A stretch of DNA of 64,000 nt, taken from positions 1-64,000 of the forward strand of contig JAVVLW010001563.1 in assembly GCA_034401795.1 (NCBI GenBank), given 5' to 3'. This DNA comes from Chaetoderma sp. LZ-2023a (lineage: Eukaryota > Mollusca > Caudofoveata > Chaetodermatida > Chaetodermatidae). How positions within the stretch are numbered: position 1 is the stretch's first letter; the number at the start of each line of letters is the position of its first letter. This document shows positions 4,308 to 35,949 of the stretch, piece by piece. The notes below the pieces were generated by a model. That model was not told where the DNA came from, made no database searches, and worked only from the letters and a program-made list of their open reading frames with translations. Position numbers and translations under genes: made by a program.

Positions 4308-4338
4308 AGCTCACTTGGCCTTTTAGGCCAGGTGAGCT
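4308..4338. repeat. Terminal hairpin of the 551-4345 element
   Basis: AGCTCACTTGGCC and AGGCCAGGTGAGCT form near-complementary arms separated by a few T residues, directly at the right boundary of the tandem-repeat element and followed by CTAAAA. A 3' terminal hairpin followed by CTRR would fit a Helitron-like end, but the usual spacer and the T after the end are missing, so that reading is weak. Confidence 0.5.
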
Positions 4339-4345
4339 AAAAAAA

Positions 4346-5250
4346 ACTATAATATCTGCTCTACACAGCCAGAATTTGTAAAACATTTATTTTACAAGCT
4401 AACCATGCATTTACACTAGTCCCAGTAATGTCAATCATTCAGGTGATGATGAGTATACTTGTAGGTGCTAGCCAGAATTAGCAGAACCACATCAATGATA
4501 ATTGACAATAATCACTTCCATGATATGAAGAATACTCTCATTGCACAGGGACGCCTGTCTGGTCCGGCAATTGGCATCTTATATATTCCCATCCACTACA
4601 CTATTATTGTATATAGTGTGGCGGATGGCGGCATGTATGATGTCGGTTGTTGAACTGGATAGGAGGAATCTGTAAGGCCCATTGCTAGTACTTAACTTTA
4701 TTATTTTGAATACTTAAATGATTTAGAACCTACTACACAGTATCGAGACACCTCAGTGCTATTGTGTCCCTTAAGCCTAATCAATATATTACAATAGATC
4801 TATATATTTATAGCGAAAGCAGTGAACGATGGCTTCGTGCATTCGCAGTGAGCATACATGGATAACATGTATCTACGTGTAAAATAGGAAAAATCAACAG
4901 AAAATGAACTAGGCTAAATTCCATATACCTTGCGACTGAGAAAGCGTGGTTTCTGGTCATGAGAATCTTTGATTCCGGTTCCGGTTTATGACATAGATAT
5001 AGATTTTGTGGTTTCTTTTCATAGGCACGTGTGTTCCCCCAAGTTATATTTAGGGAACCTTGCTCCGCATTTTCAATGTCCAAAGTGTGTGTGATATTGC
5101 TATGGAACAGCATACATTTACTTCAGAATGTAAAATGATTAAATAGCATCAAGCACACCAGGTAAAAGAGACGTCTATTCATATTTATGTGTATATAAAC
5201 GCAATACAAGGCATCGTTCACTGTCTCGTATTATTTTCACACCTATGACC
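4346..5250. other. Intergenic, no feature recognised
   Basis: About 900 bases upstream of the tandem mini-exon gene, without a recognisable coding exon or repeat. Promoter elements for the downstream gene may lie here, but none can be assigned. Confidence 0.4.
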
Positions 5251-6026
5251 ATGGAACGTCGCGGTTGTGCATATGCCACGCAGGTATAAGACTGGTCAAA
5301 TTATGTCGCAAGCACGCATACATGCATTCGCAAAAGCACACATTCACATTATTATTCTTATTTTATATTGCAGATGTTGCAAAGGCTATTGCAGCCGATG
5401 TGCCAGAGGTGATAGCCGATGTCGCGGTTGTGTATATGCCAGACATCGACGACGCAGGTATAAGACTGGTCAAATTATATGTCACAAATTCGCGCGCGCA
5501 TGCACGCACACATGCATTCGCACACGTACACATTCATATCAGTATTCCTATTTTATATTGCAGATGTTGCAGAGGCTATTGCAGCCGATGTCGCGGTTGT
5601 GCCAGACATCAACGACGCAGGTATAAGACTGGATATGTCGCAAACACACATTCGCGTGCGCATACACGCACACATGCCAGGTATTCTATATTTTATTTTG
5701 TCATTATACTTATATGTTAAATTACCTGTTGATGTTGCAGATGTCGCAGATGTTGCGGAGGTGGTGCGCATGCAGGAAATGCAGGTATAAGAATTGTATG
5801 AGACACGCACGCACTCATAACATTTTATATGTTCACATGACAAGCAATAACTATGTAATCAATTTTTATTTTATGTTAAATTCCCAATCTATTTTGATTA
5901 ACAGGTATCAAATTCAATGGTCGGCCAATCTTCGCGAGAGATCTTTCGGCGTTTGAGCTGATAGATCTCGCGGAGTCCGAGCTCCAAGAACCAATTCCTG
6001 CAAATAATAATAATAATAACAACTAG
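5251..6026 (+). CDS. Small multi-exon gene with tandemly duplicated mini-exons
   Basis: Function not recognised. Candidate exons are 5251-5283 (ATG, degenerate), 5374-5457, 5564-5620, 5741-5784 and 5905-6026 (stop TAG). Every donor reads GTATAAG and acceptors read TTTATATTGCAG, GATGTTGCAG or TTAACAG. Exons 2 and 3 encode the related acidic/hydrophobic phrases DVAKAIAADVPEVIADVAVV and DVAEAIAADVAVV, ending PDI(D/N)DA; exon 4 gives DVADVAEVV. The last exon encodes KFNGRPIFARDLSAFELIDL and ends in an asparagine run from (AAT)n. The 84-nt and 57-nt exons keep the same phase (1-1) and join in frame to the last exon. The 44-nt exon ends in phase 0 and would shift the frame, so it is either skipped or dead. 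The next gene's first visible exon at 8053 also needs a phase-1 donor, so splicing into it is conceivable. Start and expression are inferred. Confidence 0.45.
5255..5904 (+). repeat. Tandem exon-plus-intron repeat, about 100-190 bp units
   Basis: Four units each consist of a DVA-coding mini-exon, the donor GTATAAGA, then an intron rich in alternating purine-pyrimidine (ACACGC, GCGCGC, CACACATGC) and a T-rich acceptor. The first three introns share GTATAAGACTGG and the ATTTTATATTGCAG end is present twice. Unit boundaries fall in the same place relative to the splice sites, so whole exon-intron cassettes were duplicated. Confidence 0.75.
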
Positions 6027-6659
6027 AAAACGTTGTTTGACTCAGAGGGCCCCGCAATCACTGAAAACACCTTTTTCTACGCAGTAAATAGCAATTTTAT
6101 TCAAAGCCTTCATAATATTAAAAACAAAAAATAAAAAAACCAAATAAAAAATGAAATGAATTGAAGCAAAAGCTGAAGAATTAAGGTTTCTCAATGCTCA
6201 GATGAAAAAGAACATAACATGCAGAAGCATGAAATAGTTAATTAAGCAGGTTCCTGAATACAGCAAAAATATCTTACTTATATTAAATATTTTCTTCATG
6301 ACATGCTCGAGGCGGTAGGTCATGCAGTAGTGAAATGTTTGTCTTCTTATGTTATTAATATTGATAAGACTTTTATGGCTTTATTACTTTAACCTTTGTT
6401 CTCCCAAATTCTCAGCTGTTGCAATCATTAGGTGTTCATTTTGAGAACGGTACAGCTGAAATGTGATCATATGATCTATAACAGAATCCCTTTCATCTGC
6501 AACATTGTCAAAGTGAATATCACTCTGTGTCTGTGTCGAGCAGGATACGGTATAAAGCTACACGCTACCGATGATTTCACAATTTGGTGGCAACAAAAAT
6601 TTCACTACAGGCAATACCTGTGGCTTTCCTTGAGAGACAGACATTAGATAAAGGGACAC
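6027..6659. other. Intergenic, no feature recognised
   Basis: AT-rich spacer between the mini-exon gene and the 170-bp tandem array. Only short meaningless frames were seen. Confidence 0.4.
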
Positions 6660-8035
6660 CCCTAAAAATCAAGTGAAAGTATGTTAAAGTTTTTAAAAAA
6701 TCACAAGTATCACTGGTGCCCAAAGAGAAAGTTAAAAAAAAATCACAAGTATTGCTGGTGCCCACAGAGACAAGTGGCCAAAGCATTTGACTATGAAGGT
6801 GCATCCTTCAAAAGGCACATCTGTGTATCTTAAGCGAGGCATATAACAAGATTCAACAAAGTATCTTAAGCAGTTCTGTATGATATAAGCTGTTTACGAG
6901 AAAATTTACAAAAACCGTACATTAAAAAGCCCATTTTCACGCAACATATTGGACCAATAATGGCGAATCCTTCAAAAGGCACATCTGCGTGTCAAAACTG
7001 AGGCATAGACCAAGTATCATTAAAATATCTTAAGCGATTCTGTATGATATGCTGTTTACGAGATTTTGTGGACGGACGGACAGACGCGGTGATTACTATA
7101 GGGCTTCCGCACCTTCTGGAGTTTTTGAATTAAAAAGTCTATTTTCACCCTAGATTTTGGACCTATAAATGTGAATCCTTCAAAAGGTAAATTTGTGTAT
7201 CATAGCCGAGACATATATCAAGTTTCATTAAATTATTTTAAGTGATTCTGAATGATATGGTGTTTACGAGAAAATTGACAAAAATTTTGAGTTTTTGCAT
7301 TAAAAAGCCAATTTTCACCCAAGATCTTGGACCGATAAAGGTGAATCCTTCAAAAGGCACATCTGCGTATCATAACTGAGGCATATACCAAGTTTCATTA
7401 AATTATTTTAAGCGATTCTGTATGATATGGTGTTTACGAGAAAATTGACAAAAATTGTGTTTTTGCATTAAAAAGGCCATACCCAAAATTATAAACGTGA
7501 ATCCTTCAAAAGGTACATCTGCGTATCATAGCTGAGACATATATCAAGTTTCATTAAATTATTTTAAGCGATTCTGAATGATATGGTGTTTACAAGAAAA
7601 TTGACAAAAATTGTGAGTTTTTGCATTAAAAAGCCAATTTTCACACAAGATCTTGGACCGATAAAGGTGAATCCTTCAAAAGGTACATCTGCGTATCATA
7701 ACTGAGGCATAAACCAAGTTTCATTAAATTATTTTAAGCGATTCTGTATGATATGGTGTTTACAAGAAAATTGACAAAAATTGTGTTTTTGCATTAAAAA
7801 GCCCATTTTCACGAAAAATATTGGACGAATAATGGTGAATCTTTCAAAAGGCACATCTGCGTATCTAAACTGAGGCATACACCAAGTATCATTAAAATAT
7901 ATTAAGCGATTCTGTATGATATGCTGTTTACGAGATTTTGTTGACGGACAGACAGACAGACGGATGGACGGACAGACGCGGTGATTATTATAGGGCTTCA
8001 GCACCTTCTGGTACTGGGCCCTAATAATAAAATCA
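6660..8035 (+). repeat. Tandem array of ~170-bp units ending in GACGGACAGACG motif
   Basis: The phrase AATCCTTCAAAAGG recurs near 6966, 7173, 7342, 7499, 7669 and 7840, giving a unit close to 170 bp, with a diverged first copy near 6805. Each unit continues with ACATCTGCGTATCATAACTG, a CAAGT(T/A)TCATTAAA phrase and GATATGGTGTTTACGAGAAA. At 7071-7121 and 7945-8012 the units end with GACGGAC repeats followed by CGCGGTGATTA(C/T)TATAGGGC, which look like element termini. The array directly abuts the first visible exon of the MULE transposase gene and so probably lies in its upstream intron. Confidence 0.75.
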
Positions 8036-8052
8036 TATTGTCATTTTTTTAG

Positions 8053-10206
8053 GATATTCTCATAGTCTGGGGTATCGATATATCCTGAAGGTTGACAAGT
8101 GTCGTCCCTAGATTGTCTACAGATGCATGGTAAGGGGTCGAGCGCTAGCCTGTAAAGCGATAGTACACCTAAGAGATGGTGAATATGTTCGATGTCTCCA
8201 CAACCACATCTGTGTTGCTGAGCCAGGTAACCACATCATATATTTAACTTAACTACTATTACACATATTATGTAATAAAACAATTCTGTGTTCTATATTA
8301 TTCTGTCTACGAAGTAAATTGAAGGAGAAATGAAAACAGCCTACTAGTTTCTCTTATATAACTTCAGGTCGCGAAAAAGTTGCAGTTGTCTGCAGAGATG
8401 CAAAACTATTGGGAAAGAGGAGACTGTTCGACTCTGCTGCAGAAATCGTAGAAGAGGTAACGCCCCTATTATATGGCTTATTGATTAATTTATTGATTTG
8501 TTATCTGTATTGCATTGCAGGTGATGTTCGAGAACGATAATGTCCAGTTGTTCCCGACATTGCCGAAACTGACCATCTTGAGCCGACAAGTTAATAATGA
8601 CAGATGAAACTGCAGGCCAAAAGAAACGACGGACATTGACTTCCGGCTCTACGAGAATTACTTACCAAGGGACTTCATTAAACGTGACATATGGACTGAC
8701 GACAGACGACACATTATAATGGCTACGGATGCGATGCTAAACCAGCTCTTGAAGGCAAAGACCTGGTAACATTATTTGTTTTATCAAACTTTAGCTAATC
8801 ATAACCAAACAATAACATTAACATTTCACCGCACCTTAACACAAACTAATTCAAACCATAACATAACCATCTAACACTTGTTCATTAAAAATATAATGGT
8901 GTATTAATGTCATAGTATAGGGTAAATCTTATTGCAACAATATATAATTAAATTGATTACAATTGTTTGGTTTGTTAAATATTAATAAAATGAATATCAA
9001 TATCATTTTGTGTTGAAGGTACGTGGATGCTACGTTTAAAGTTGTGCGGCCGCCATTCGTGCAATTTTTTAGCATTCATTCATTCGTCAGATCAGGTGCG
9101 TCGATTAAACAGGTGCCACTGGTGTTCGTGATGATGTTGGGGAGAAGGGCAGCTGATTACAGCGCTGTATTCCAGCCTCGGCAGAAATCGCATTATTAAG
9201 ATGCGTGGCTGATTATGAGGAAGCAATTTGGCAGAGCCTGAGAGGAGTCTTCCCACCCCGCACCAGCAACCAAGGGTGCATGTCTCATTTTACGCAGGTG
9301 TGTAGGGGCCTACATTTATATGCAAGCATATACAGAATTATGGTGATATGATATTATCGATAATTAGTTTAGGCACATACAATATATATTAATAAATTAC
9401 TTTGGCATTTATGTTTCAGTTGATCTGGCATAAGGTGCAGGAGCTGGGGTTGCAACGCATATATGCCGATGATGAAGGGACTAATGAGGTAATTATTATT
9501 ATTATTATTATTATTATTGTTGTTGAGGTTGTTTGAGGTAAAATTGTTTAATATTAATGTTACGTTTTTTATTATTCAGATACGTCATCGTCTTATGTCA
9601 TTGCTGCTTCTGCCTCATCCACATATAAGGGAGATGTTCGACATGCTCATGGAAGGCATTGGTCCAGATTGCATTGCCTTGTTGCAGCTGGCTGAGTATA
9701 TGAGGACACAGTGGATAGATGGGGTGATCTTCTCTCCCGTTGATTGGGTGGTTTTCAACCAACATGTCAGGACCAAAAATGATGTGGAGGGTTGGCACTA
9801 TCACCTAAATCATCGGGCCAAGAAAGGTAACAATAATAAAGATACTATTTAAATTGATACATTGCTATATAATATTTCTTTAATAACGATTATCATGTTA
9901 TATGGAATTGTGGTCGATCGCATTATCTATTGTATTTCAACAGGTCAACTCCCATTCTATCTGCTGTGTAGCTTGCTACACAAGGAGGGGAAGCTGGTCA
10001 CAATGCAGATGACGTTGGTGTTGGGTCAGGATCTGTCATGGCATCAGCGCCATGGAGCCGTGGTGGTGAACGAGAAGCTGGAAGGTCTCTGGACAGCCTA
10101 CTCAGAGAGTAGGCTATCGGTTCAGGACCTGCTAGTGCAAGGGAGCCATCTGATTTGCCTGAGGCGAGACGGAGAGGGGAATGAGGTGGAGGCTGTGGTG
10201 GTGTAA
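8053..10206 (+). pseudogene. FLYWCH zinc finger + MULE transposase gene, seven exons, decayed
   Basis: Exons with GT/AG borders: 8053-8226, 8368-8456, 8521-8765, 9019-9297, 9420-9488, 9580-9826 and 9944-10206 (TAA). Exon 1 carries a FLYWCH-type finger: GYRYILK, YRCMVRG, ACKAIV and HNH. Exons 3-7 form a Mutator-like transposase. The first Asp is in WYVDATFKVVRPPF (9026-9028), the second in VADYEEAIW (9211-9213), then GCMSHFTQ, and the Glu is in NDVEGWH (9787-9789). The C-terminus contains GQLPFYLLCSLLHKE. The MULE family cuts and pastes DNA in the nucleus and leaves 8-11-bp duplications. Damage: in-frame TAG at 8109-8111, TGA at 8605-8607 and a frameshift near 9175-9185; otherwise exons join in frame. 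The 5' end, including the exon donating phase 1 to 8053, was not found. The gene may be a dead autonomous MULE or a decayed domesticated copy; its own TIRs were not identified. Confidence 0.85.
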
Positions 10207-10713: not shown

Positions 10714-11122
10714 GTATGTATGTATGTATGCATTTATATAGCACCAATTCCAGAATTAACTGCCCAAAGGCGCTTTACAAAAGTTAAAGCTAATTTAAAA
10801 TAGTGAAATATGCTTTTTGGAACAAATGGGTTTTTAGAAGAGTTTTGAAAGCCTAAACATTGTTGCTGTTTTGAATGTTGGATGGAAGGTCGTTCCAAAG
10901 TTTTGGTCCAGCTATGGAGAAAGCACGCTCTCCAATGACAAGATTGGAATTGGGTACTACGCAGAGTAGCTGTTCACTCGATCTTAGTGCTCTCGGTGCT
11001 ATTCGTCTAGTTATGAGTGATGATAAATACGGTGGGGCTAAGTCATGTAGGCATTTGAACACGAAAAGTGCGACCTTAAATTGGCAAATCAGTTTCAAAA
11101 TACTCAACATTTCTAACATCAA
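10714..11122 (-). pseudogene. L2/CR1-like LINE, ORF2 C-terminus and 3' UTR
   Basis: The minus strand encodes the typical C-terminal tail of CR1/L2-group ORF2: FKVALFVFKCLHDLAPPYLS, then RALRSSEQLL, ERAFSIAGPKLWNDLP. A stop at 10853-10855 interrupts it, after which the same frame continues with FKTLLKTHLFQKAYF to a stop near 10790. Downstream is an L2-style 3' UTR (AAAGCGCCTTTGGGC and GGTGCTATATAAATGC) and a (CATA)n tail at 10714-10731. All 5' domains (endonuclease, RT) are missing, the usual outcome of 5'-truncated target-primed insertion. Confidence 0.85.
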
Positions 11123-11573
11123 TTAAAATGAGGTCTATGAATTTCAGATCTATGGTTACTTAATCACGGCATTAACCTGGGAAAAAAAATATATTATTTT
11201 ATACAGACAGACTTATACAGATCAATAATAAACATTACGATTACAATATTTTACAACAACATAACAATGTTGAACACGCTGCCGAAAATGTAATAACGTG
11301 AGAGTCTCAGTGGCCTGCCGAAAACGTATTAATATTTGTGGCTGCCGAAATTACATGGCTGCCGAAACCGCCCGAGACACCCTGACCATTATCATAGGCC
11401 GCATAGGGGGGGGGGGGGGGGGTATGTGGTAGTGGAATAATCACTAATGGATTGACGGAAATTCAAAGGCATGTTGTATTACTTGAAGTAACAGCACACA
11501 GTATTGTGACAATGATGTGCTGATCATAGACGTGTAAACCTGCGGTCAGAAACAACTTAACTTATTAATAGCT
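11123..11573. other. Flank between the LINE fragment and the giant TIR element
   Basis: Noncoding. Contains an uninterrupted G run near 11407-11421, which may be hard to sequence accurately. Nothing else recognised. Confidence 0.5.
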
Positions 11574-11584
11574 AAGTATTGTAT
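11574..11584. repeat. Left target-site duplication of the giant TIR element
   Basis: AAGTATTGTAT immediately precedes the left TIR and is repeated exactly after the right TIR at 23147-23157. A T on both outer sides makes the duplication 11 or 12 bp. Confidence 0.9.
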
Positions 11585-12104
11585 AGTCTCTATGAAAAGC
11601 CGCAGTCTACAACTGCGTCTCTAACATCTGCCTATCGATTCCTGTCTGGATTTTCCGCCGAAACGGCCCATATTTAACACGCCTGTTTTTATACGAAAAC
11701 TGGATATACGTGCGAATCGAACTATGCAGTCAATAAAAACATATCGGCAACATCAGATTGCCGTAAATAGTTTAGTGAATTATTCTCTTTAAACCATTCA
11801 GTCTTCGTTTTATTCAAAGTAAACAACAGGCACGTTTGTCTGCGCGTACATTCTGCTTTTTTCGTATCTTCTCGCTTCGGTTGACGACTCACGTGACGAG
11901 CGAGTCCGCGCTAAAACACGGATCACGTATTGCGTTGCCGGACGGCGCCCGATTGTAGATTGAACAATCTACGAGGATTTTTAGAAAAGGTCTGATTGAA
12001 AATATTTTCTTTTAAAATTGTTTAATAAATAAATGAATTATATTAATTATCTTAGTAATAATCATAATAATAATAATAATAAGAATAAGAACAATAATAA
12101 GAAC
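11585..12104 (+). repeat. Left terminal inverted repeat
   Basis: Reverse complement of 22632-23146 with very few differences (for example GATTGAAAATATT against GATTGAAGATATT). It contains two internal stem-loops, CGCAGT-ACTGCG near the tip and GTAGATTG-CAATCTAC at 11955-11972, a TCACGTGA palindrome, and GC-rich motifs unlike the AT-rich interior. TIRs of MULEs can carry the transposase promoter and binding sites; here that is only a possibility. Confidence 0.9.
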
Positions 12105-12197
12105 AATAATAATAATTTGGAGAAATTTAATTTAAAAAAAAAAATTAATAATAATAGAAATAAGAAAAAGAAGAAGAGGAAAAAGAAAAAGAAGACG

Positions 12198-12266
<69 letters not shown>

Positions 12267-12740
12267 AATCATCATCATCACCATCACCATCATCATCATC
12301 ATCATAATAATAATAATAATGAATATTAAACAAATAAAAAAAATAAAAATAATTATTCAGAATAATATTCAGAATAATAATAATAAGAATATTAAGAATA
12401 ATATTAAGAATAATAATACTAATATTAAGAATAATAATAATAAATTTTTTTAAATTTAAATAAATAAATACATAATAATAATAATCATAATAATAATCAT
12501 TATAATAATAATAATAATAATAATAATCATAATAATCATAATAATAATAATAATAATAATGAATATTAAACAAATAAAAAAAATAAAAATAATTATTCAG
12601 AATAATATTCAGAATAATAATAATAAGAATATTAAGAATAATATTAAGAATAATAATACTAATATTAAGAATAATAATACTAATTTTTTTTAAATTTAAA
12701 TAAATAAATACATAATAATACTAATCATAATAATAATCAT

Positions 12741-12771
<31 letters not shown>

Positions 12772-12823
12772 GTTTGGATAAATTTAATTAAAAAAACCAA
12801 ACTAATAATAATAATAAGAAGAG

Positions 12824-12855
<32 letters not shown>

Positions 12856-12954
12856 AGAATAACAAGGAGGAGGAGGAGAAGAAAATAGTGAAAAAGAATA
12901 AATAAGAATAATTTTATTTAAAAAAATCATAACAATAAATATTAATAATGATAC

Positions 12955-12999
<45 letters not shown>

Positions 13000-13025
13000 A
13001 TATTCAAAAAATAAAAATGATAACA
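12105..13025. repeat. AT-rich microsatellite block with 2 x 240-bp duplication
   Basis: (AAT)n, (AAG)n and an (AT)n tract at about 12199-12251, adjoining the left TIR. A 240-bp unit starting GAATATTAAACAAAT is present at 12321 and again at 12561, nearly identical. The block is an approximate mirror of 22020-22631 by the right TIR: for example the AAGAAGAGGAAAAAGAAAAAG phrase here has its complement near 22390-22420. Confidence 0.85.
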
Positions 13026-13309
13026 AAAATTATGATTTATGACGCATTCAAGATGGTCGTAAAACCACTGAGCTAATCATGTTCCCCTTAGCTATTTTGA
13101 TGCTAGTGCCAATCAATAGCATATTCCCTGAATTTCGCCTCAATTTGCTTGGTTATTCTTGATACAAAATATATTTGAAATTTGCGGGAAATATAATAAT
13201 AAATGGAATAATCAGTCTAGTCTTCCATAACTTTTGTCTTGTAATCATAATGATACAAGAAAACCAAAGGCTAAGATAAGAGCAAGCCAATGGGCTATGC
13301 CTCGTAAAA

Positions 13310-13340
<31 letters not shown>

Positions 13341-14389
13341 GTGATGATCATGATCATGAAGATGATTTAAAATATACGATCCTTGCAGGTTAGCAGATAA
13401 GGGATCTATACACATATAACACTGTACTAAAGTTTACAAGTTCAGCACACACCATGACATTACATATCGTTCATGTGAGTGTGCATAAATGCGCATGTGC
13501 ATGTGTGCAGGCATTAGTTTGTGTATATGTGTATGGCTCCGTGCATGTGTGCATGCATAACTATGTGCGTGTGTATCTACATACCTGTGTGCGTGTGTGC
13601 GCTAGAATTATTTGTATGGCTTACCTCATTATCAGCCTCGTTCTTTTTCATTTCTTCTACTGTTGAACACAACTGGCATGCATCACAATTTACTTACCAA
13701 TCAATAGAAGAGGTACCTTAGTCTTTCGAGTCACAAAGACGGGTTGCTGAAGGCAATTACACAAGGATGCACATAAATAATGCTGAGCTGCATTCACCAG
13801 TTGCTAGAGTCATACTGATGCACAATAACGGTTGGCTGTACACATAATGAAGTACAATGCGTAGTTGCAGAAGGCATGGGAATTTCTTATACTTTCTAGA
13901 TTCATATCAACACTTCAAAACCCTCATAGAGAATCCTCCTCCTCATTCATGTCATTGGGCTTTATATTCGCTCTTCATGTCTCTGTAGTAGTTGTTTTGG
14001 TAGGAGTTGGGCTGCTGACCTCACCAAACCCTCCTCTGTTCACAGCCGGGCTTGGGACCATCCAAGGCAGAGTTAACACAGGGGAATTAGACTGTACATA
14101 GACAAGGCTGATGCAAAATCACTAATTGCTACAGTCGAATTGATGCACAATGGTGAGATGCTGTAGACATGGGAATGAGACTGTACATAGACAAAGATAA
14201 GACATAATCACCAGTTGCTAGAGAGAAACACTCAAGAGTGTCTGTAGACACGGACACGAGGCTATATATCTCCATGTCTGAGACATAGTCATCAATATTG
14301 CTATAGTCATATTGAGGCACAATCAAGAGTAGCTTGGCACGTAGGCAACACGCTATACATAGACAAGGCGGTGGCATGATCAGAATTTG
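13026..14389. other. Interior of giant element: noncoding with microsatellites
   Basis: Contains (GAT)n at about 13310-13350 and a GTGTGC/GTGCAT-rich stretch at 13470-13600. From about 14110 onward degenerate ancestors of the following 32-bp minisatellite appear (GCTGTAGACA, GGCACAAT). No gene recognised. Confidence 0.5.
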
Positions 14390-15175
14390 GTAGAGTCATC
14401 TTAAATCAAAATGACGATTTGTTGTAGATGTACTGATCCACAATGATGATTTGCTGTAGACTTACTGAGGCACAATGATGGTTTGCTGTAGACTTCCTGA
14501 GGCACAATGACGAGTTGCTGTAGACGTACTGAGGTACAATGACGAGTAGCTGTACACTTACTGAGGCACAATGATGAGTTGCTGTAGATGTACTGAGGTA
14601 CAATGACGAGTAGCTGTACACTTACTGAGGCATAATGATGAGTTACTGTAGACTTACTGAGGCACCATGACGAGTTGCTGTAGACGTACTGAGGTAGAAT
14701 GACGAGTAACTGTACACTTACTGAGGCACACTGACGAGTTGCTGTAGACATATTGAGTCACAATGACGAGTTGCTGTAGATATACTGAAGCACAATGACG
14801 AGTTGCTGTAGATGTACTGAGGCATAATAGCGAGTTGCTGTAGACTTACTGAGGTACAATGACGAGTTGTTACAGATGTACTGAGGCACAATGACGACTT
14901 GCTGTAGACTGATTGAGGCACAATGACGAGTTGCTGTAGGTTACTGAGGCACAATGACGAGTTGCTGTAGACTGAGTGAGGCACGATGAAGTGTTGCTGT
15001 AGATGTACTGAGGCACAATGACTAGTTGCTGTAGACGGATTGAGGCACAATGAATGGTTGTTGGAAGCATGGGCAGAGGGCTGTATTGATAGATGGCTGA
15101 GACACAATGACGAGTTGCTGTAGACATATTGAGTCACAATGACGAGTTGCTGTGGACATACTGAAGCAGGATCAA
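14390..15175. repeat. 32-bp minisatellite, about 24 copies
   Basis: Unit approximately GACGAGTTGCTGTAGACTTA + CTGAGGCACAAT, spaced exactly 32 bp over much of the array (for example 14509 and 14541). Copies differ at a few positions. Long open frames across it on the minus strand are produced by the repeat and are not genes. Confidence 0.9.
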
Positions 15176-17059
15176 ATAATTTTCAAGCACAAAATTGTAA
15201 AATGTATGTTCTTCAGCTTAACTTGTTTTTGGGCCGATTTAGGCAGTTAACCCTTTAACTGATGTGAAACTTTAAGTCACATCTTCAAGGCAACCATGCA
15301 TGAAAGCTGTTGAACATCTTGAACATATTTTGAGTTTAATCATGATAACTTAATTTAAAATACCCAACCGAATGTTTCTTAAATCATCACGAATTTGTTG
15401 CATCTGGCATGTATTATTGAACAAATTAGGTTAATCACTGCTTAGATCCATGCATGCCAGACACAACACCCTGGAGTGTAATTTTATCACTTCAACCCAA
15501 TCTGTTCAGATAAACATTCTCACTCAAAGACATTGGCACTTATAATCACATCCGATATGAGTACAATTACTTCACCGAATAGTGTGATCATATAGACAAT
15601 CTGTGCTGTACATACACAAGCCTTTATGATTTATGGCATATCTTTGTGAATATTTTGAAAACAATTTTATGGGTATTTGGTGCCGTGTATGGCAGCTTTG
15701 CTATACAGTTATTAGAATGTGGTGTTGGCTGGCTTAAGAAAATGTCTAAGTTTTAGATAGATTGAGTCCTGATAATTATCATAAGTTATGTTTGCACAAT
15801 TTATCACATTACAGCGTGAATTCATTATGAAAAAGCAACTTAGAAAGTATAACAATTTTTAAAGATAGAATGTAATATTGTTTGTTTTTATTTAGATTTT
15901 TTAAATATCACACATATTATGGGTACAATATAGTCATTTATCACACTAATGCCAAATGGACTTGTTAATAGAAGTCAATAGAAGAAAGACGCGTGTACAT
16001 TAAAAATTACCTTTGTTAATCTATTGCTGTCATATTAGACAGCAAACAGTCTAAATAAAAGTTGTCCATGACTGCACACCAAATAACCTCTGAAATGTAT
16101 TTGAATTTGGGAAAATGAACATTCAGTGTTCCAAGAGTTTAATTATCCAGACCTCAAAACAGATACAACTTGTTCAGTAAATCATTAACAATTTTTATCT
16201 ATTTTTTATGTATTCAAATGCAAATGTCTTTGCGTTTACCAATATGTCTATTTATGTTATCAAATGTATATAAAATGTGTTGTCTAATTAGTTTGTGGGC
16301 CACCTAATGACTATTTTCAAGATTACAATAATGATATTTATATTGAGTTCTGCAGGATATATTTTTTTAATGTAGCATTTATACTGAAGCAAAAGATATA
16401 TGTCTGCACAATTTGCTTACTCAGATTGAGCTCTAACAAGATGTAAAGCAGATGTATTTAAGACAATTGTTAAAATGGAGTGTTTACTGTTGAAGAGACT
16501 GACTCACTTAATGCATATTTGTTATTTTACAAACTGTTATAATTACACAAGGGTGCACATCAGAATGCGTGTAAATAAATTTTTACAATTGTACAATTTT
16601 ATAGGCTTAATTATTGTATCTCAATGTAATGAAATCAGACAAATCTTAAAATATGATGATTTCCTTCAGTAAAGATTATTTTAAAATTTTAATAGCAAAG
16701 TTGAATTAAGGAATCTTGTCTCGAATTAAATTTAAAAAACAAAAGAATTATATTAATTAATATGTAATGAAATTGTCATATGTTAAGAAATTTTTCCTTT
16801 CCTTACATCTACGCAGACAATTTAAGACTATAAAAGTATACAATTTTGACTTTTTAATTGTATATATATTAAGTGGTTGTTACCAATTAGGTGAAACTGC
16901 AATAATAAATAATAAACTGGCCTGATAATTCTAATATTTTAATACACGTAACAAAGCACATATATCATAATCCTGTAAAGTGATTAAATGATTTTTGCCT
17001 ATCGTTAACATTATTGCTGCTTGTTATTATCCAAAAGTCCTCATGTTCCCTGTTGGAAT
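15176..17059. other. Interior of giant element: AT-rich, no feature recognised
   Basis: About 1.9 kb of AT-rich sequence with short frames only. No domain, splice-bounded exon or terminal-repeat structure seen. Confidence 0.5.
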
Positions 17060-17541
17060 TATATGCTATACTGCGCCACCACAACCACCACCAACACCAC
17101 TCCACCAGCACGAGCACCACCACCACCAAAACAACAACAACAACAACAACAGCAACAACAACAATCACCATCATTATCATCATCATCATCATCATCATTA
17201 AAACAAGAAAAACCACTGCTGCTGCACGTGACTCCAAGAATATCTGGAATGTGCACCATCAGTTCCCATGAATTCGTGTTGTTGTCAGACAGGTGGTTGA
17301 ATGCGGTGTATTTTGGTCATCTGGAAGGTGAATCAATATAGAACACACACATCTAAAACGCAAAGTGAAAGGCGCAGAAGACTTGACTGGGTTCAAACAC
17401 ATTCATGTTGATAATTTAAAAAGATAAAAATTAAATTCCAGATGATGACTAAGCTATATCCTAGTGCCAGCAAGTCGTCCATGACAGGGTTCATAGATTT
17501 ACTGATTGACAATAATACATAAACTATTTCTACGGCTGCTG

Positions 17542-17607
<66 letters not shown>

Positions 17608-17610
17608 GTA
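17060..17610. repeat. CAC/CAA/CAT and (CTA)n microsatellites
   Basis: 17060-17200 is a run of CCACCA, CAACAA and CATCAT triplets; 17528-17608 is a nearly pure (CTA)n tract. Homopolymer-rich peptides predicted from these are artefacts. Confidence 0.85.
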
Positions 17611-20081
17611 CGGGCGGATCTAGAACAGAAAGCTGACTGCTGCACACCAATAAGAAATGAAAATCATTTGTCAACGGGCGCCTCTCACAATATGGGGGAT
17701 CCAGGCGTCCTCTCCTGGAATTACCAAAAATGTGATGCTCTGAGGAGTGATCTCCTACATTATGAAGGATACATAATTACATTATTTTGATTTTAAAAAT
17801 ATATAAATTTTTTCTAATAATTACTCATATGGATAAATGACCACACAAATGCTTTGATGTAAAGCATGAATCGGCTATATATGAGAAGATTGTTTAACTC
17901 TTAGGATATACATTTTCTAGTCAATTTGCATGTCACATAACTTTGGTACACAAAAACAAAATTATGATGATCGAGCCAATTCCCAATATGAACATATGTA
18001 AATTAATGCTGGGATTAATTGTAACCGCTGCTAATTGGCATTGACCACTTCAAATCGCCATTTACCACATTATAATCCCCTTCCAATTTATAGCTAAACT
18101 TTTTAAAGGTTTTTGCGTGTGTAATGATAGATTTATATACTTTGAACTCATAATTATCCTGATCCCTTTTTAAAGTAAAGATACATATATCTGTTGAATT
18201 TTTGTAAGAATTGACGGGCTGTTACTGTTCAAATATTGCTGGCTATGGCAGCAACAGTGTCCATTCGAATTAGTTTCACAATATTCAACATAATGTTGAT
18301 TAAATATTAAATCCAGCAAAGACATACAATTCTTACATTTGGCGGACTTCTTCAGCTTCATGACAGAGGTATAATATGTAATTAATATGATTGTTTGATT
18401 AAAAGCATGGGTGTAGTAACGTACTTGTACCGAGGGGATGAAATATTGACGTGGCTATGTGGATTCACTATGAGAGAGATAAAAACCGGGGTGGGGGGGG
18501 GGGCGGGGAGGGGGGAAAGGCCCCCCACTTACTACCAACTCTTCATACGGTTATGAAAATGGACATATGTTTTTGTCACAATTGATGGTGGTTAGCTAAA
18601 GTATATTCTCATAATGACACAGAATTACACAAATTACCATCAGCTGGCCACAAAAGCTAGTTACCATAGCATAGTTATAGGAAAGTGTCCAAAAGAGTGT
18701 GGGTGGTGTGTGCGGAGAGGAGGAAACTCAGACCAGATGTAAGTATAACTCGAACTACACCTGTAAGGGAATTAGCTGACGTTGGCGTGGATTAGATTAC
18801 TATACGATGTGAAACACCCATGCGTTTTTATCCAAAAGACAAAACCTCAGTAATGATTATGACGTCATTAATCAAATGATTACCGGATATTTTAATTTGC
18901 CAAAATGCTTAACCCAAAATGAAAACGATAGAATAGAAGTCTAGGGGTATCTACATGATTTCCATTATCAATGGTTAACACTTTTATTCGAAGGAAAGCT
19001 TATGGGACCGATTTGAGGTGAATCCCAACACTTCCTTATCTTGGCTTGACATATGGAAGAGTAATCTGCATTAGCATTTGAACTTTAACCTATTGATTCA
19101 CAATATGGTGGTAATTAAGAGGAAATAAACAAAGACAGATTTGAAAAATATTATTCATTCATTCTTGCCTAGTTTCTGATCTGTTGTAAAATTATAGCAG
19201 CATTGTACAGTTGACATGATTGTTACAATTGATATATTATATGAATATAAAAATGATTCTGTTGAAGCAGGATTTCAAAATTATAACTACTGAAACCCTC
19301 AATGTCTTTCCTTTAATATTCATAAACCAATTTGACCCAAACCAAGAACTCTAATCCTTGAAGTCATATCTAGATCGAAACGACCATTATCGATACAACG
19401 GATTGATCCTGGTTGATCCAATCCCTGCTCTTTCTTTGAGTTTTGATATCGATTTTTCGATCCAATGTCATTTATATCAATCCTCAAAGAATATCACAGA
19501 CGATTTAGTTCACTTCAGAAATCATAAATGCTCAAAATTAATGTAAGATGAGATCCGGGTACATCCACTATCCAAGTTGAAACTGATCCCCATTCGATCT
19601 GATCCATAAGACCACTATCGACTACTGAATCATTTACAACCTGGGATGTATATTGACCATCGGATAATCCCCAGAGTTTATGGCAGCATGTCGATAAAAT
19701 TAAGACTTAACGGTTCTTGGTTCAGAATTTAACCTTGAAACTATTAATCTAATTAATGTGTTAATAGTTATGACAACAATTAATATAACATTTTCATATA
19801 ATAAATCAACAATATACGACCTGAATGTAGTATATCTGTTGTAAATGCTCAATGGAAACAGCCATTTCTTTGTTGCTTGAAGACGAAGGGTCCTGCGGAC
19901 GAATGATCACAATACCAATTCTGATATCGTATCGAAGACGATGGAAAGATGTGGGTGCACCCAGAGGAACGCGTAACACAAAAATATAAACGAATTTATC
20001 TTATAATGTAGGTGGATCTGAAATGCTGAATAGGCCTGGCCACGAGCCGCCAGAAGCTAAAGATGTGATGGATTAGCGAAT
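17611..20081. other. Interior of giant element: no gene; G-rich tract
   Basis: Noncoding apart from meaningless short frames. At about 18488-18518 a run of GGGG blocks could form a G-quadruplex. No coding domain recognised. Confidence 0.5.
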
Positions 20082-20395
20082 GGCCAGGAGCTGGTTATCT
20101 GACCCACAACCACGTTAACCAGGAGCTGGTTATCTGGTGATAGTCAATGATGACCAGGAGCTGGAGACCTGGTTATGCACGATATTATTAGAAGCTGGCA
20201 ATCTGGTCATGGATGATACTACCAGGAGCTGGAGACCTGATTACGAATGATATTACCAGGAGCTGGAGACCTGGCTGCAGATGACAATACCAGGAGCTGG
20301 AGACCTGGCTATAGCTGATATTACCAGGAGCTGGAAACCTGGCTACACATGATATTACCAGGAGCTGGAGACCTGCCTATAGCTGATATTAATAA
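20082..20395 (+). repeat. 34-bp minisatellite, about nine copies
   Basis: Unit ACCAGGAGCTGGAGACCTGG + CTATAGCTGATATT with starts at 20221, 20255, 20289, 20323 and 20357, that is exactly 34 bp apart; earlier copies are more diverged. Confidence 0.9.
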
Positions 20396-21159
20396 CCCAA
20401 AGTCATGCAGAGATTCTTGGATGAAAGTTCATATTGTGCCTACAAATCAAAACGTATATTCACTGGACAAACGTGAATTAACTGTTAATGGGCCCTAAAC
20501 TGAGATGGCGCCCATATCTATTTATGAATCTGTATGAGGACTGCTGATAGACTCATTTTTATATTTGAACTTCACAATGGAAACATTTTCTCGGCCACGC
20601 CGGTGTATATGGCTGGCGTAGAAATATATACACGTGAGATGATGGCTGCCTACATCACAACTTCGCTAAGGCGCAACTGACTCTCACGAAGGCCAACCAC
20701 TGAATGCTTGTCGAGGCGACGATTTTAACACATGAACACAATGTATTGTGACCCGTCTGGATCACGCGGATATACAACAACATGTTGATTTGTAACTCCT
20801 ACATAACTGCTCAAATAATTCATAGAGATTCCATACATTTTATAAATAATGAAATCTACATTGATTATAACCTAATCATAATAACAAATACAATTAATTA
20901 TCTTAATTCTAACTGATATAAATTTTGTATAAATGTAAATCTCAATTACGAATATCCCCTACGCCTTTATAATTGACATGAAGTAATTTATTTCATTAAA
21001 TCAACCAGAAAGCATGCAAGACTGAATAACAATCTGTCTACCTATATTGTAGCGGATTTGGAGTTCAAATATGTTGCGGGTGGCATAAGCTAACGTGATT
21101 GTATAGAAATGTGATTGCTATGTATGATCTTACGATCATATGATAGCAGCCGTCGTCAC
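20396..21159. other. Interior of giant element: no feature recognised
   Basis: AT-rich noncoding sequence between two minisatellites; nothing recognised. Confidence 0.5.
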
Positions 21160-21465
21160 ACACCTGACACACAGGACTTTCATAGTGCAGAATCAGAAAG
21201 TTCGGACTACACATGGCACACAGAACCTTCAGAGTACAGTATCAGAAAACTCGGACTACACCTGGCACACATAACCTTTATAGGGCACAATCAGAAAACT
21301 CGCACAACACCTGACACACACACAACCTCTATAGGGCAGAGTCAGGAAACTCGCACAACACATAGCACACATAACCTTTATAGGGCAGAGTCTTGAAACT
21401 CGCACAACACCTGGCATACAGAACATTTTATAGGGAACAATCTGCAAACTCGGACTAGCATCATC
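21160..21465 (+). repeat. 49-bp minisatellite, about six copies
   Basis: Unit approximately ACTCGCACAACACCTGGCAC + ACATAACCTTTATAGGGCAG + AGTCAGAAA; starts at 21249 and 21298 show the 49-bp spacing. Confidence 0.85.
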
Positions 21466-22019
21466 CATCGTATTATTAAATCAATAGTTCATCCCAATGT
21501 AATACAAGCATACATGCTATATTACGAGTTTGCTGGCCACATCTCTACATGATAATGGATGATCAAGTTTTAGCTATGCCACATACATCTCTAGCTAAGC
21601 TTCGCCCATGCGTTATTCGTGTTGTGATCAATCGAACCGTGAACTCCCGGAATCTCAATTTCCTGAAATTTATACAGGTGAGCTGTTGTCTATTTTGAAA
21701 CTAATTAACTGTGTGCTGTGGCACCAAGAATGGCAAGGCAGATTAGTTTAAAGTGACCGGTTATTAAATAGTAATACATACAGTTTTTACAACTTTGTGG
21801 ATTATTAAGGGTATATGACCAACTGAGACATGGCTTTCATTTTAAGTCCACTGTGATTGTGACACCAACCCACATGTGACGTAATTGATTATGACATCAT
21901 ATACTTGACTGGCATACTGGATTCCTGTATTAACAGACAGAAGGAAACAAAGCTGTCTACAACAGCAAGCAAAGATATCATTCAACAAAGATATCTGACA
22001 CCAATTCGAGAAAAGTTTC
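21466..22019. other. Interior of giant element: no feature recognised
   Basis: Noncoding sequence leading into the right-hand microsatellite block. Confidence 0.5.
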
Positions 22020-22264
22020 TGCTTACCAGTATACCATCTCTTCTTGTTCTTGTTCTTCTTCTTCTTCTTCTTCTTATTTTTATTGTTATTAATACTTATT
22101 TTAGGAAAAATTTTTTAAATCAAATTAGTCACAATTATTAGTCTTATTCTTATTATTCTTATTATTCTATAATGTTATTATTACTCTTATTCTTATTATT
22201 ATTTTATTTTTATTTTGCGTATTTCTTCTTCTTATTTTTGTTTTTTAAATTAAAATTTTTAAGA

Positions 22265-22301
<37 letters not shown>

Positions 22302-22307
22302 TTATAA

Positions 22308-22365
<58 letters not shown>

Positions 22366-22408
22366 ATTATTCTTATTTAATATACATCTTCTTTTTCTTT
22401 TTCCTCTT

Positions 22409-22439
<31 letters not shown>

Positions 22440-22506
22440 TTATTATTATTATTTATATTATTATTAATTATTTATTTATTTTTTCTTAAATCAAATCATT
22501 CAGAAA

Positions 22507-22547
<41 letters not shown>

Positions 22548-22631
22548 TGAATATTATTATTATTATTATTTTAATTCTTTATTTTTTTTATAATCAAATT
22601 ATTCTTCTTGACTATACTTCTTATTTTTTTA
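22020..22631. repeat. TTA/CTT/(AT)n block beside the right TIR
   Basis: Pyrimidine-rich counterpart of 12105-13025: (CTT)n, (ATT)n, an (AT)n tract at about 22313-22363 and a TTCTTTTTCTTTTTCCTCTT phrase. It extends the inverted symmetry of the element inward beyond the clean TIR, although expansions and contractions have scrambled it. Confidence 0.8.
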
Positions 22632-23146
22632 TTCTTATTATTGTTCTTATTCTTATTATTATTATTATGATTATTACTAAGATAATTAATATAATTCATT
22701 TATTTATTAAACAATTTTAAAAGAAAATATCTTCAATCAGACCTTTTCTAAAAATCCTCGTAGATTGTTCAATCTACAATCGGGCGCCGTCCGGCAACGC
22801 AATACGTGATCCGTGTTTTAGCGCGGACTCGCTCGTCACGTGAGTCGTCAACCGAAGCGAGAAGATACGAAAAAGCAGAATGTACGCGCAGACAAACGTG
22901 CCTGTTGTTTACTTTGAATAAAACGAAGACTGAATGGTTTAAAGAGAATAATTCACTAAACTATTTACGGCAATCTGATGTTGCCGATATGTTTTTATTG
23001 ACTGCATAGTTCGATTCGCACGTATATCCAGTTTTCGTATAAAAACAGGCGTGTTAAATATGGGCCGTTTCGGCGGAAAATCCAGACAGGAATCGATAGG
23101 CAGATGTTAGAGACGCAGTTGTAGACTGCGGCTTTTCATAGAGACT
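22632..23146 (-). repeat. Right terminal inverted repeat
   Basis: Near-perfect reverse complement of 11585-12104, ending GGCTTTTCATAGAGACT. An open frame of 67 codons inside it is composition-driven and has no recognised homology. Confidence 0.9.
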
Positions 23147-23157
23147 AAGTATTGTAT
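23147..23157. repeat. Right target-site duplication of the giant TIR element
   Basis: AAGTATTGTAT, identical to 11574-11584. Confidence 0.9.
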
Positions 23158-23884
23158 TAACGAAAACTGGTATCGTTTAAAACAATTTAATTATTAGTGG
23201 GTTTCAGGGCAGCAGATTGCTGAATTTGACGACTAACCTAATTGAGAAATAATTCAAATGGCAAAGGCATATCTGTTTTGACGCTACACTAGTTTAAAGC
23301 GAATAAGTTTACTTTTTTTCTTCTGATATTTGTTCCGTTCCGTTCCGTTCTGCACTTGGATAGTCCTCCAGTTTGTTGGTGCACCCACACGTATGTGGTA
23401 GTAGCTATTACGATTATAATCAGACGAATTAGTTCGAATATTACAGTTGCGCGAATTTCGGAATTACAATTCAACGAAGTTACGTGATGCGTAAACTTGA
23501 TAGTATAACCGAGAGTTACGTGCAAGTAAACCGCCTATGGTATAAAAACAAACGATCATCACAATGCAGAAGAATGCCGAACTTCGTGAATTTGTTTTTA
23601 TCGCTCTCATTCTATGACGTCACGGCGCGTGTATCGCATCTTCACAATAGTCACGGTTATGTTGCAGTTCTCACCCCTTTGACACAATTTTTTTTGCAAA
23701 AATGCGTTCAAAACAGATATGTATTCATATAATTACTAATACTAGTGGTAAAAATGTACAGATTCCTTAATGCACTTTCTTAGATTATTTAGTTACGACT
23801 ATTTAGCATCTAAAATGATAAATTTTCACAATCTAAAGTTACCGTCTGCTTTGTTTCATATCTCAAGATAGCATCGTTCAACGA
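23158..23884. other. Flank right of the giant element, no feature recognised
   Basis: Unique-looking AT-rich DNA with two short overlapping frames on opposite strands; no motif recognised. Confidence 0.4.
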
Positions 23885-27125: not shown

Positions 27126-27546
27126 ATACGAATGTACATATATTTTATTTATCCAACAAGAATTTGAATATTCTTTTTTCAATACATCAAGTTTTTTGAG
27201 CGACGGCTTTCATTTTCCTTTCCATCAGAGTTTTTTTTATCCTAGTTATTTATGCTCTGTCATGCCGGTATAAAAATATTGAACTGCCATACTAAATAAT
27301 TAGCCATATATACAACCAGACCATTACCCATACCAGTATATCTGCTGCTCCGAAGCCACCAGCTAGATATTATGAAAAATCTAAATTGCTCCCAGCCATC
27401 CTAAACTACATGTTTTCTGCCAAGCTGAGGAAACCTTCCGGTAGCCTTTTTCTCACTTGTCCACTTCCCTAAGATTTCAATAGCGAATCGTATAATAATT
27501 ATTCTACCCACAATTACACCTCACTCATCCCTTTCCACCCAATCCT
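27126..27546. other. Probable 5' flank or 5' UTR of the PHD LINE
   Basis: About 420 bases with no recognised coding content. The 5' boundary of the following LINE could lie here but no target duplication was identified. Confidence 0.35.
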
Positions 27547-30500
27547 ATGCCCATCAAATTCCCTTGTTCTTCCTGTAGAAAACCAGTGAGATGTAACCAA
27601 TATGCTATACTATGTGATTGCTGTGGTGTCTGGATACACTTATGCTGCTCAAAGCTTACCACTGCTGAATATGCAGAACTAGAAAACTCAGAGGTGCCAT
27701 GGTGGTGCATTAACTGCAATAAAGATTTATTTCCCTATAATCACTATGATGATGATACTGATTTCATGTTAGCTATCCTGGACATAAATGAACGACATAA
27801 CCACATGTATCAATATACCCACCAAGAAACACCTTTTAATCCATTTAAGCTTAACAAATTCTACCAAAATATTATATCTCAAGATGATACTGATAATGAG
27901 GAATGTGACTATATTCTTCAAAAGGAATTTAATGATAATTTAATTAGGAATGTAAATGAAACAATCACATTCTCTCAACTTCATATTAATATCAGGTCTC
28001 TTCTGAAGAATAACAATAAACTAGGCATGTTTCTAGATGCAAGCTCTCGTGAATTTGATCTAATTGGTGTTACTGAGACCTGGCTGAAACCAGACTCACC
28101 ACTAAGCTTAATTGATAGACAGCACTATAACTTCATTGAAAAGCATAGACCAGCACAACACACAGCCACAAGGGGAGGTGGTGTATGCATCTATGTAAAG
28201 GATACCATTCAATATACTATAAGAGAGGATCGGTGCATGATGGAAGCAGATATAGAAGGCCTTTTTATTGAAATACTCAGAAGTAAATCAAAAAGCAAAA
28301 TTGTTGGTGTTATTTATAGAGCCCCAGGAACGGATAATGATAATTTTATCAAAGCTTTCGATAACATTTTGCAAACTATCCAAAAGGAAAACAAGATAGG
28401 ACACATTATGGGAGATTTCAACATTGATCTACTAAAACAAAACTCCTTTTATACACAAAACCTACTAAACTTAATTGGCTCATATGGCTTCTATCCACTC
28501 ATAACAAAACCGACTAGAATTACAGAAACAACTGCGACCATCATTGACAATATCTTCACAAATAGCATTGTTGAATGGAAAAATCAATTAGGTATTTTTG
28601 TTGCAGACATATCTGATCACTTGCCTATTTACTACCTGAAAAAAAACACATTTATAAAAGAAAATCTAATGTGTACGGACTTTGGAATAGAAAATAGTGA
28701 CAAATTTAAGAACGCTGTCTGCTATAAACTGGAACTACATTAATAGAATTGTCAGTCATGTGAAGATGCCTATACCACATTCCATACTGTGTGCACAGAT
28801 GTATATGATCGCGCCTTTCCACTAAAAACTGCTAAACAATTTAAACGAAACCCGACTAAACCAGGGCTAACTAGGGGATTGATAGCTGCTTGTCATAAGA
28901 AAAACACACTGTACTTAACATTTATCAAGCACTCTACAAAGTACAATGAATCTCAATATAAAAAATATCGCAACAGACTAAACCAAGTAATCCGGAGAGC
29001 CTAAATCAATCATTACCATAATAAATTCATCAATCAGAAAGACAATATCAAAGAAACGTGGAAGTTAATAAAGTCTCTACTGAATAAACAAAACAAGAAA
29101 TCAGAGACATCAAGATTTATATATAATGACAAAGTTTTAACCAACAACCAAGATATAGCAAATAAATTTAATGAATATTTTATCAACATTGGACCCAGCC
29201 TATCGGAAAAATTAGGAATACCTCTAATACAAATATAGAAGATTATCTGACAGGCAGCTATCAATCCTACTAACACAGATGAAATCTCAAAAATCTTAAT
29301 CCAAATCTACCTGAACAAAAGTGCAGGCATTGATAATTTTAAATGGAACATTTTTACTAACTGTCTCTCACAAATATTAATCCCATTGAACCACATTTGT
29401 AATCTTTCCCTGATGCAGGGTATATTCCCATCTCGACTAAAAGTAGCACGGGTGACACCAATATATAAAGCCAATGACTCTTCTGACTTCACTAATTACC
29501 GGCCTGTCTCAGTCTACAATAGACTGATAAATTTCTCAAATAGATATTCTATTCTCTATAAAGCGCAATATCGTTTTAGACAAAACCACTCCACAATGCT
29601 GGGTCTGATAGATATGTTGGAAAAAATAACAAATTCTCTAGAAAACAAAGAACATATTTTTGGCATATTTCTTGATCTTTCTAAGGCTTTTGACACAATT
29701 GATCATAAGATTCTAATAAAAAAAACTATCTTATTATGGAGTGAGAGGAATTGCCCTAAATTGGATAACAAGTTATTTATCAAACAGAGCACAGTGCGTA
29801 CAATACAATGGAGCTTGCTCTAGCAATGAAAACCTAGTTTGTGGTGTCCCGCAGGGATCAGTACTTGGACCTCTCCTGTTTTTAATATATATGAATGATT
29901 TACCCAATGTCTGTCAGCACCTTTCATTAATACTGTTTGCAGATGACACCAATGCTTTTTGCCACAACAAGAATATAGAAACACTATATAAAAATGTAAA
30001 TGAAGAAATAGAAAAAGTAATAAATTGGTTTAAAGTAAATAAATTATCACTGAATGTCGGGAAAACTAATTACATGCTCTTTACAAAATCTAGAAAACTA
30101 AAGAAAAATGACTTGCCAAAATTGTACATTGATAATCAGGAAATACAGGAGGCTGTTTGCTAAATTCTTAGGTGTCTACCTGGATAAAGATCTAACCTGG
30201 GAGAAACATATAGAGATTGTAACATCTAAAGTGGCAAGAAACATTGGGATCATGTGACAACTTAAATCATACTTACCACCTAACATACTAAAAACACTAT
30301 ATTGCACGTTAATACTCTCACAAATTACTTATTGCAACACTATTTGGACTAATACATATAAAATCAGACTGGCAAGACTAAAATCACTTCAAAAGCAAGC
30401 CATTAAACTTTTTGCACAAACAGGAGAGGCCCAAAATGTTTACAAGACAGAAAATTGATTAAAACTAGAAGATATTGGTAATCTCCAATTATATACAATA

Positions 30501-30761
30501 ATAAAAGATTTTTTCAAAGGTAATCTACAAAATTCACTGTCTTCTCTCTTTAACCTAAACACTGAAATACATGCATACAACACCAGATCTAGACACAACT
30601 TTCACACAGAATACAATAGAATGGAAATCTCAAAAAAACAAAAACCATCCTTTCAAGCTACAAAACTCTGGAATAACACAGACACGAACACACGTACACG
30701 GATTATTAGTCAAAATTCCTGCAAACATATTATTAAACAAATGTTCATTAATAAGTACTAA
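27547..30761 (+). pseudogene. PHD finger + endonuclease + reverse transcriptase LINE ORF2 (CR1/Jockey group)
   Basis: Residues 1-65 form a PHD-type zinc finger (CSSC, CDCCGVWIHLCC, WWCINC). Then comes an apurinic-like endonuclease from about residue 140: INIRSL, GVTETWL, GGGVCIYVK, GVIYRAPG, MGDFNIDLL and SDHLPIYYL. The RT follows: VARVTPIYK, NYRPVS, FLDLSKAFDTIDH, GVPQGSVLGPLLFLIYMNDL and the catalytic FADDTNAF, then the C-terminal thumb region to a stop at 30759-30761. Such ORF2 proteins nick DNA and reverse-transcribe their own RNA at the nick. Damage: stops at 28741, 29002 and 29236, frameshifts near 29735 and 30163, and an in-frame loss of about a dozen residues between NYRPVS and YNRLINF in RT. 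The copy is inactive. The start at 27547 is chosen because the zinc finger begins directly after it. The exact clade (CR1, L2, Jockey-like) needs a tree. Confidence 0.9.
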
Positions 30762-31492: not shown

Positions 31493-31535
<43 letters not shown>

Positions 31536-31891: not shown

Positions 31892-31892
31892 A

Positions 31893-34805: not shown

Positions 34806-34811
34806 TAGTCC

Positions 34812-35877: not shown

Positions 35878-35949
35878 GGATGCTCCTACATGTATTTCAA
35901 TAACAATGAACTCATTTGACAAATTACAGTATATGGTTACATTTTTTTT

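Follow-up and report, generated by a model that had tools for sequence, protein, structure and literature searches.

The 64,000-nt window analysed here (C879:1-64000, on an unplaced 88-kb contig of the 2.44-Gb, 2,753-contig genome assembly of the mollusc Chaetoderma sp. LZ-2023a) carries an element of 11,564 bp at positions 11584..23147. With moderate confidence, we interpret this element as a recently inserted non-autonomous cut-and-paste DNA transposon, and loci of 51-68 bp elsewhere in the genome as the scars that a far-staggered cleavage would leave. The element is non-coding by every test applied, yet moves as a unit.

Element boundaries and the empty insertion site

The element begins with TAGTCTCTATG and ends with CATAGAGACTA. 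Its boundaries were placed by comparison of 13 complete copies, window copy included, all of which start with T-AGTCTC, end with GAGACT-A and are flanked by a repeated word of 9 bp. In the window this target site duplication is AGTATTGTA, located at 11575..11583 on the left and 23148..23156 on the right. An earlier reading of the window, made from the sequence only, had proposed an 11-bp duplication. The window does contain exactly two copies of the word AAGTATTGTAT, at 11574 and 23147, each adjoining the outer edge of an inverted copy of AGTCTCTATG; however, the 13-copy comparison puts the boundary one base further out. The extra letters on each side of the 11-bp word are the terminal base of the element and a chance match.

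The near-identical parts of the terminal inverted repeats, 430 bp each as compared, occupy 11584..12013 (forward strand) and 22718..23147 (reverse strand). They differ by 0.23% over 429 aligned positions, with 2 gap columns. The large element with exact inverted termini, and the long repeats matching almost base for base, were thus correctly recognized in the sequence-only reading. A search with the first 33 bp of the tip, allowing up to 3 mismatches, matched the window only at the two element ends (0.00 matches expected from 100 shuffles). Weaker inverted similarity (80%), partly of low complexity, reaches approximately 1.19 and 1.10 kb through (TAA)n. The repeat scan placed the AT-rich inner arms at 12056..13002 on the left, as (TAA)n, and at 22134..22676 on the right, as (ATT)n. 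An A at tip position 14 (window positions 11597 and 23134) is present at both window ends and in none of 40 other arm rows. Private bases common to both ends of one copy were also seen in three other copies (on C11, C16 and C5), which hints at homogenisation of the arms.

The joined flanks of the element align continuously with C778:528-952 at 100% identity (query positions 1-426), as anticipated for an empty site. Against window positions 11106-11584, C778 shows no mismatches and one gap in 479 columns; against 23145-23332, it shows one mismatch in 188 columns, and AGTATTGTA is present once. We infer that C778 represents the other haplotype at the insertion site. With the empty site, an assembly artefact becomes very unlikely, and the window element was probably inserted recently. 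Beyond position 23332 the C778 sequence (953-10000; positions 300-1500 were read as L069) differs from the window and encodes, at 8100-8519, a P-type RNase H domain that may belong to another transposon inserted close by on the C778 haplotype.

Exact 9-bp duplications were found at 29 of the 31 paired loci read: 24 of 26 in a first set, which takes in the 13 complete copies and five short loci, and all five further short loci. As L032 and L039 share both duplication and flank, 28 of 30 is the safer count. The two misses are C2:99.1 Mb, where 2 of 9 bases match, and C1:43.4 Mb, with 7 of 9. No strong base preference was seen in the duplications. An assembly artefact, named in the sequence-only reading as a way for its proposal to fail, or a chance inverted repeat might be suspected for a window on an unplaced contig. 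The many chromosomal copies with their own duplications, together with the empty site, refute this explanation and leave it a negligible probability; the same evidence upholds the description of a giant non-autonomous inverted-repeat DNA transposon.

Short loci and the proposed cleavage

The 34-nt tip of the element, at 11584..11617 (forward strand) and 23114..23147 (reverse strand), terminates at both ends in the same small hairpin, whose left-end stem is formed by 11601-11606 and 11612-11617. A fold of this kind was matched by 4 of 200 shuffles. Across the genome, 24 loci, 51-68 bp in length, have two exact 17-bp tips 6-36 bp apart (control, 0), and no exact 17-bp tips lie 37-67 bp apart, i.e., there are no loci of 71-101 bp. 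The short loci retain 23-34 nt of tip per side, and none of the 48 ends is longer; overlap bases are counted on both sides in these lengths, so the true values can be slightly smaller. The 34-nt limit coincides with the end of the tip hairpin. At the junctions, the tips overlap by 0-6 bp in 21 of 24 loci, and fillers of 1, 2 and 6 bases were found in the other three. Counting a junction and its reverse complement as one, 15 distinct junctions are present. Such diversity under a fixed limit is expected if a cut at one constant position is followed by end joining.

Of the short loci, 10 had their flanks read (seven of the 24 and three others), and an exact 9-bp duplication is present at every one of them. 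The 28-bp centre of the 64-bp form, at up to 1 mismatch, occurs at 18 places (control, 0), four of which are among the 24 loci. A separate list of 58 tip pairs was drawn from 196 typed tips; its lengths, which are approximate, some ends having been placed by an internal 32-mer, range from 58 bp to about 62 kb. Six of these pairs measure 58-64 bp and none falls between 65 and 531 bp. The 49.6-kb pair has an exact duplication, and the 62-kb pair is known by its tip positions alone.

In the mechanism we propose, a transposase provided by another part of the genome would move the window element, cutting one strand at the outer end and the other about 34 nt inside, at the base of the small hairpin. 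As much as 34 nt of each tip would then stay on the flanks, and their end joining would produce a near-palindromic scar of 51-68 bp between the old duplications. In favour of this interpretation, tip positions 1-40 are the part common to the family and a sister family. Two sister arms are 95% identical to the family arm over positions 1-20, 90% over 21-40, and 45-50% over 41-100 (row C2_63_L, which has an insertion, was left out of the profile).

Alternatively, the 51-68-bp loci could be independent tiny transposons, that is, minimal palindromic miniature inverted-repeat transposable elements (MITEs), rather than scars. The exact duplications at all short loci read and the same 64-bp centre at 18 places would suit such elements. 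The 15 distinct junctions in 24 loci would not, and some copies duplicate one event (L032 and L039, with their common duplication and flank). Bringing together the two ends of a stiff 60-bp DNA in a transpososome would also be difficult. We consider this alternative improbable. Two loci with the 64-bp centre, C17:58404524 and C17:58550736, have P-like domains at distances of 37.6 and 34.7 kb, identically arranged; this probably reflects a segmental duplication, so that some short loci copy one event.

Several observations weigh against the scar interpretation. Some junctions recur, at 2, 3 or 4 loci each, and the 64-bp centre form is common; both could also result if the short form had itself transposed repeatedly. 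The flank evidence covers 10 short loci, the stagger is read from the 34-nt limit, and scar formation is deduced from static genome loci. The status of C778 as the other allele rests on 479 + 188 aligned bases, the contigs diverging beyond 23332. Domain searches of the listed pairs and tips did not reveal a transposase for the family. Finally, the 9-bp duplication departs from the 8 bp described for P and THAP9-type elements in PMC7776569.

Family copies, interior and search for a transposase

When the genome was searched with the left arm, 606 candidates were obtained and 40 of them scored; these matches were all full-length and 97-100% identical, many of them in inverted pairs. The window element is collinear with four other copies. 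The five measure 10,780-11,654 bp and differ by 0.66-1.35%, which indicates that the non-coding interior moves as a unit. Other copies, of 2.3, 3.0, 6.2 and 6.5 kb, are internally deleted but keep intact ends, or carry inserts (16 kb). At up to 2 mismatches, the tip was found 304 times in forward and 306 times in reverse orientation, compared with 117 and 107 in the reversed control. For a second arm type, 46 + 52 exact ends were counted (control, 0), and a C at position 14 marks a rare sister tip, seen at 4 ends. A second subfamily carries a piece resembling a long interspersed nuclear element (LINE), most simply explained as a nested insertion. LINE-like or Gypsy-like pieces, named by eye, were repeatedly seen within or next to the AT-rich inner arms (L067, L068, L070, L035, L040 and L037), the Gypsy-like piece in L067 having terminal repeats of about 157 bp; the microsatellite arms may act as landing pads for such pieces. 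Viral and prokaryote collections, scanned for the exact tip, and a search of phage records gave no match, as expected for such a genome.

The interior common to the full-length copies (13003..22133) was characterized by a six-frame Pfam scan and copy alignment. It contains three minisatellites: 24 copies of a 32-bp unit at 14410..15168, seven of a 34-bp unit at 20153..20391 and six of a 49-bp unit at 21160..21457. An abundant dispersed repeat starts at about 18,760, with several matches of 238-244 bp at 96-97% among those scored; its extent of 18760..19000 has the query end, not the true repeat end, as its right limit. The sequence-only reading had described the content as satellites and AT-rich DNA only. 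The minisatellites, several short trinucleotide runs and the AT-rich arms bear this out, but much of the 13-22 kb region is without tandem repetition and is common to the five aligned full-length copies. Satellite capture by the window element, also suggested at that stage, is not borne out, the minisatellite regions being present in all five copies, with the 32-bp array varying in length. Gene capture fared similarly: a search with the middle 3 kb (16000-19000; 40 of 10,574 candidates scored) gave, by eye, no clear unlinked single-copy source. Among the scored matches, this segment is essentially whole at 95-100% identity in at least 15 places, window included, with partial matches down to 85%.

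With the six frames read through stops, no Pfam family scored above the cut-off in the element (best E-value 0.011, below cut-off), in agreement with the original statement that it holds no transposase. An Rfam scan of the element and a tRNA scan of the window were both empty. The longest stop-free run in 13005-22033 comprises 154 codons, lies inside the 32-bp minisatellite and was reached in 1 of 100 base shuffles. A gene-free element below about 600 bp would be called a MITE; the window element, at 11,564 bp, exceeds the usual size of non-autonomous DNA transposons. It could in principle be autonomous, with a spliced transposase of an undescribed kind hidden in an interior that is kept whole in at least 15 places, as Pfam does not cover every transposase. 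The lack of any frame above 154 codons in 13005-22033 and the absence of Pfam matches above cut-off make this very improbable.

A transposase elsewhere in the family was sought through three domains. For the MULE domain PF10551 (Mutator-like elements, MULEs), 150 of 344 candidates were scored and gave at least 130 matches; none of the 130 listed lies inside any of the 58 listed pairs, and eight MULE loci had no tip at up to 4 mismatches within about 1.5 kb on each side. PF20700 gave two matches (5 of 5 candidates scored), by eye not near listed tips. PF21787, the P-type RNase H domain, gave 115 matches (131 of 131 candidates scored), of which 15 were set aside because each was a further fragment of a place already counted. 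None of the remaining 100 P-like places is within 34 kb of a listed tip, each tip list covering its first 100 places, and the nearest is at 34.7 kb; this comparison measures distance to tips, and containment was checked by eye in the two giant pairs. As the tip and pair lists are incomplete, these negatives leave both the MULE and the P superfamily possible.

The autonomous copy that the sequence-only reading had proposed to look for was not found among the loci read and pairs listed, and none of the three domains pointed to a co-located transposase. Candidates that were rejected include the 16-kb C5 copy, a window-type copy with a nested insert whose 708-aa frame is DIRS-like by eye. Three further loci, at C2:99.1 Mb, C4:36.4 Mb and C13:54.0 Mb, belong to the second subfamily and contain pieces that look LINE-like by eye. 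The 9.2-kb C2:99.1 Mb locus was discarded as an autonomous candidate, as its frames are LINE-like and Gypsy-like (by eye) and its flanks mismatch (2 of 9). Long pairs outside those read may hold the transposase.

Outside the element, the window has tandem arrays at 7119-7935 (period about 170 bp, 4.9 copies) and 59046-59570 (19 bp, 29 copies). At 27499-39737 there are several open frames of LINEs, encoding endonuclease and reverse transcriptase domains and apparently coming from at least 2-3 adjacent elements.

Relation to known superfamilies

The MULE pattern noted in the sequence-only reading holds in part. The 9-bp duplication at 29 of 31 paired loci is within the 8-11 bp of the MULE superfamily, and the near-identical arms of about 430 bp (310 bp in the C2:99.1 Mb copy) are of the long type found there. 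In common with MULEs, among them Phantom, Tm1 and Pack-MULEs, our family has a 9-bp duplication, arms measuring hundreds of bp, heterogeneous interiors and, as we propose, mobilisation in trans. The family could be a conventional MULE family whose short loci arose by interrupted gap repair or deletion between palindromic arms. Such duplications and arms are given as typical of MULEs in PMC6446971, the genome has at least 130 MULE domains, and in the nematode MULE family Tm1 the arms are described as long and composite, the duplications as 9 bp and some members as free of genes (PMC3169594).

In contrast, no MULE domain was found in the listed members, the 11.5-kb element is non-coding while Pack-MULEs of the first survey reach at most 7 kb (review, PMC6431247), and the scar-like loci keep up to 34 nt of each tip. 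For the animal MULE Muta1, excision is reported as mostly precise when duplications are present, with the cut inferred outside the repeats and up to 13 bp occasionally left (PMC5225508). The 23-34 nt per tip kept here, if the short loci are scars, argue against Muta1-type excision, although precise excisions would be invisible in this analysis. Interrupted repair, moreover, predicts neither the 34-nt limit nor the empty 71-101-bp class. We therefore regard a conventional MULE family as rather unlikely, and filing the element as a MULE is premature.

The cut-and-paste transposon with far-staggered cleavage that we favour resembles the P superfamily in its mode of transposition and in a long staggered cleavage within the terminal repeat, which in our case we infer. 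The single-stranded ends that P transposase leaves measure 17 nt, which PMC7776569 calls unusually long, but the limit of about 34 nt is twice this stagger, and the P-like places lie apart from the listed tips (0 of 100 within 34 kb). Rehavkus, as tabulated in PMC6446971, has a 9-bp duplication, repeats of 26-400 bp and a minisatellite association; its minisatellite, however, is in the C-terminal part of the protein, its listed hosts are arthropods and annelids, and no protein was found in our element for comparison. Foldback-type elements (FB, Galileo) also have long, repeat-rich inverted arms and vary greatly in size, whereas here the outer arms are unique sequence and the microsatellite is in the inner arm only. 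The duplication of Galileo is shorter. Galileo belongs to the P superfamily (PMC4168063).

In the literature surveyed as PubMed Central text, a stagger above 17 nt or a comparable scar family was not met, though either may still be in print. It is possible, as a tentative proposal, that the transposase lies outside the known superfamilies, recognising a 34-bp hairpin-ending tip, cutting with a stagger of about 34 nt, moving gene-free cargo of at least 11.5 kb and seeding scars of 51-68 bp. DNA transposition is reviewed as dropping significantly above 6 kb of cargo (PMC6431247); in contrast, the middle 3 kb of this 11.5-kb gene-free element is present almost in full at 15 or more places, and an empty site matches the window copy. 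Should the short loci be scars, each would record a cut position, and the cleavage geometry of the transposase would be readable from the genome.

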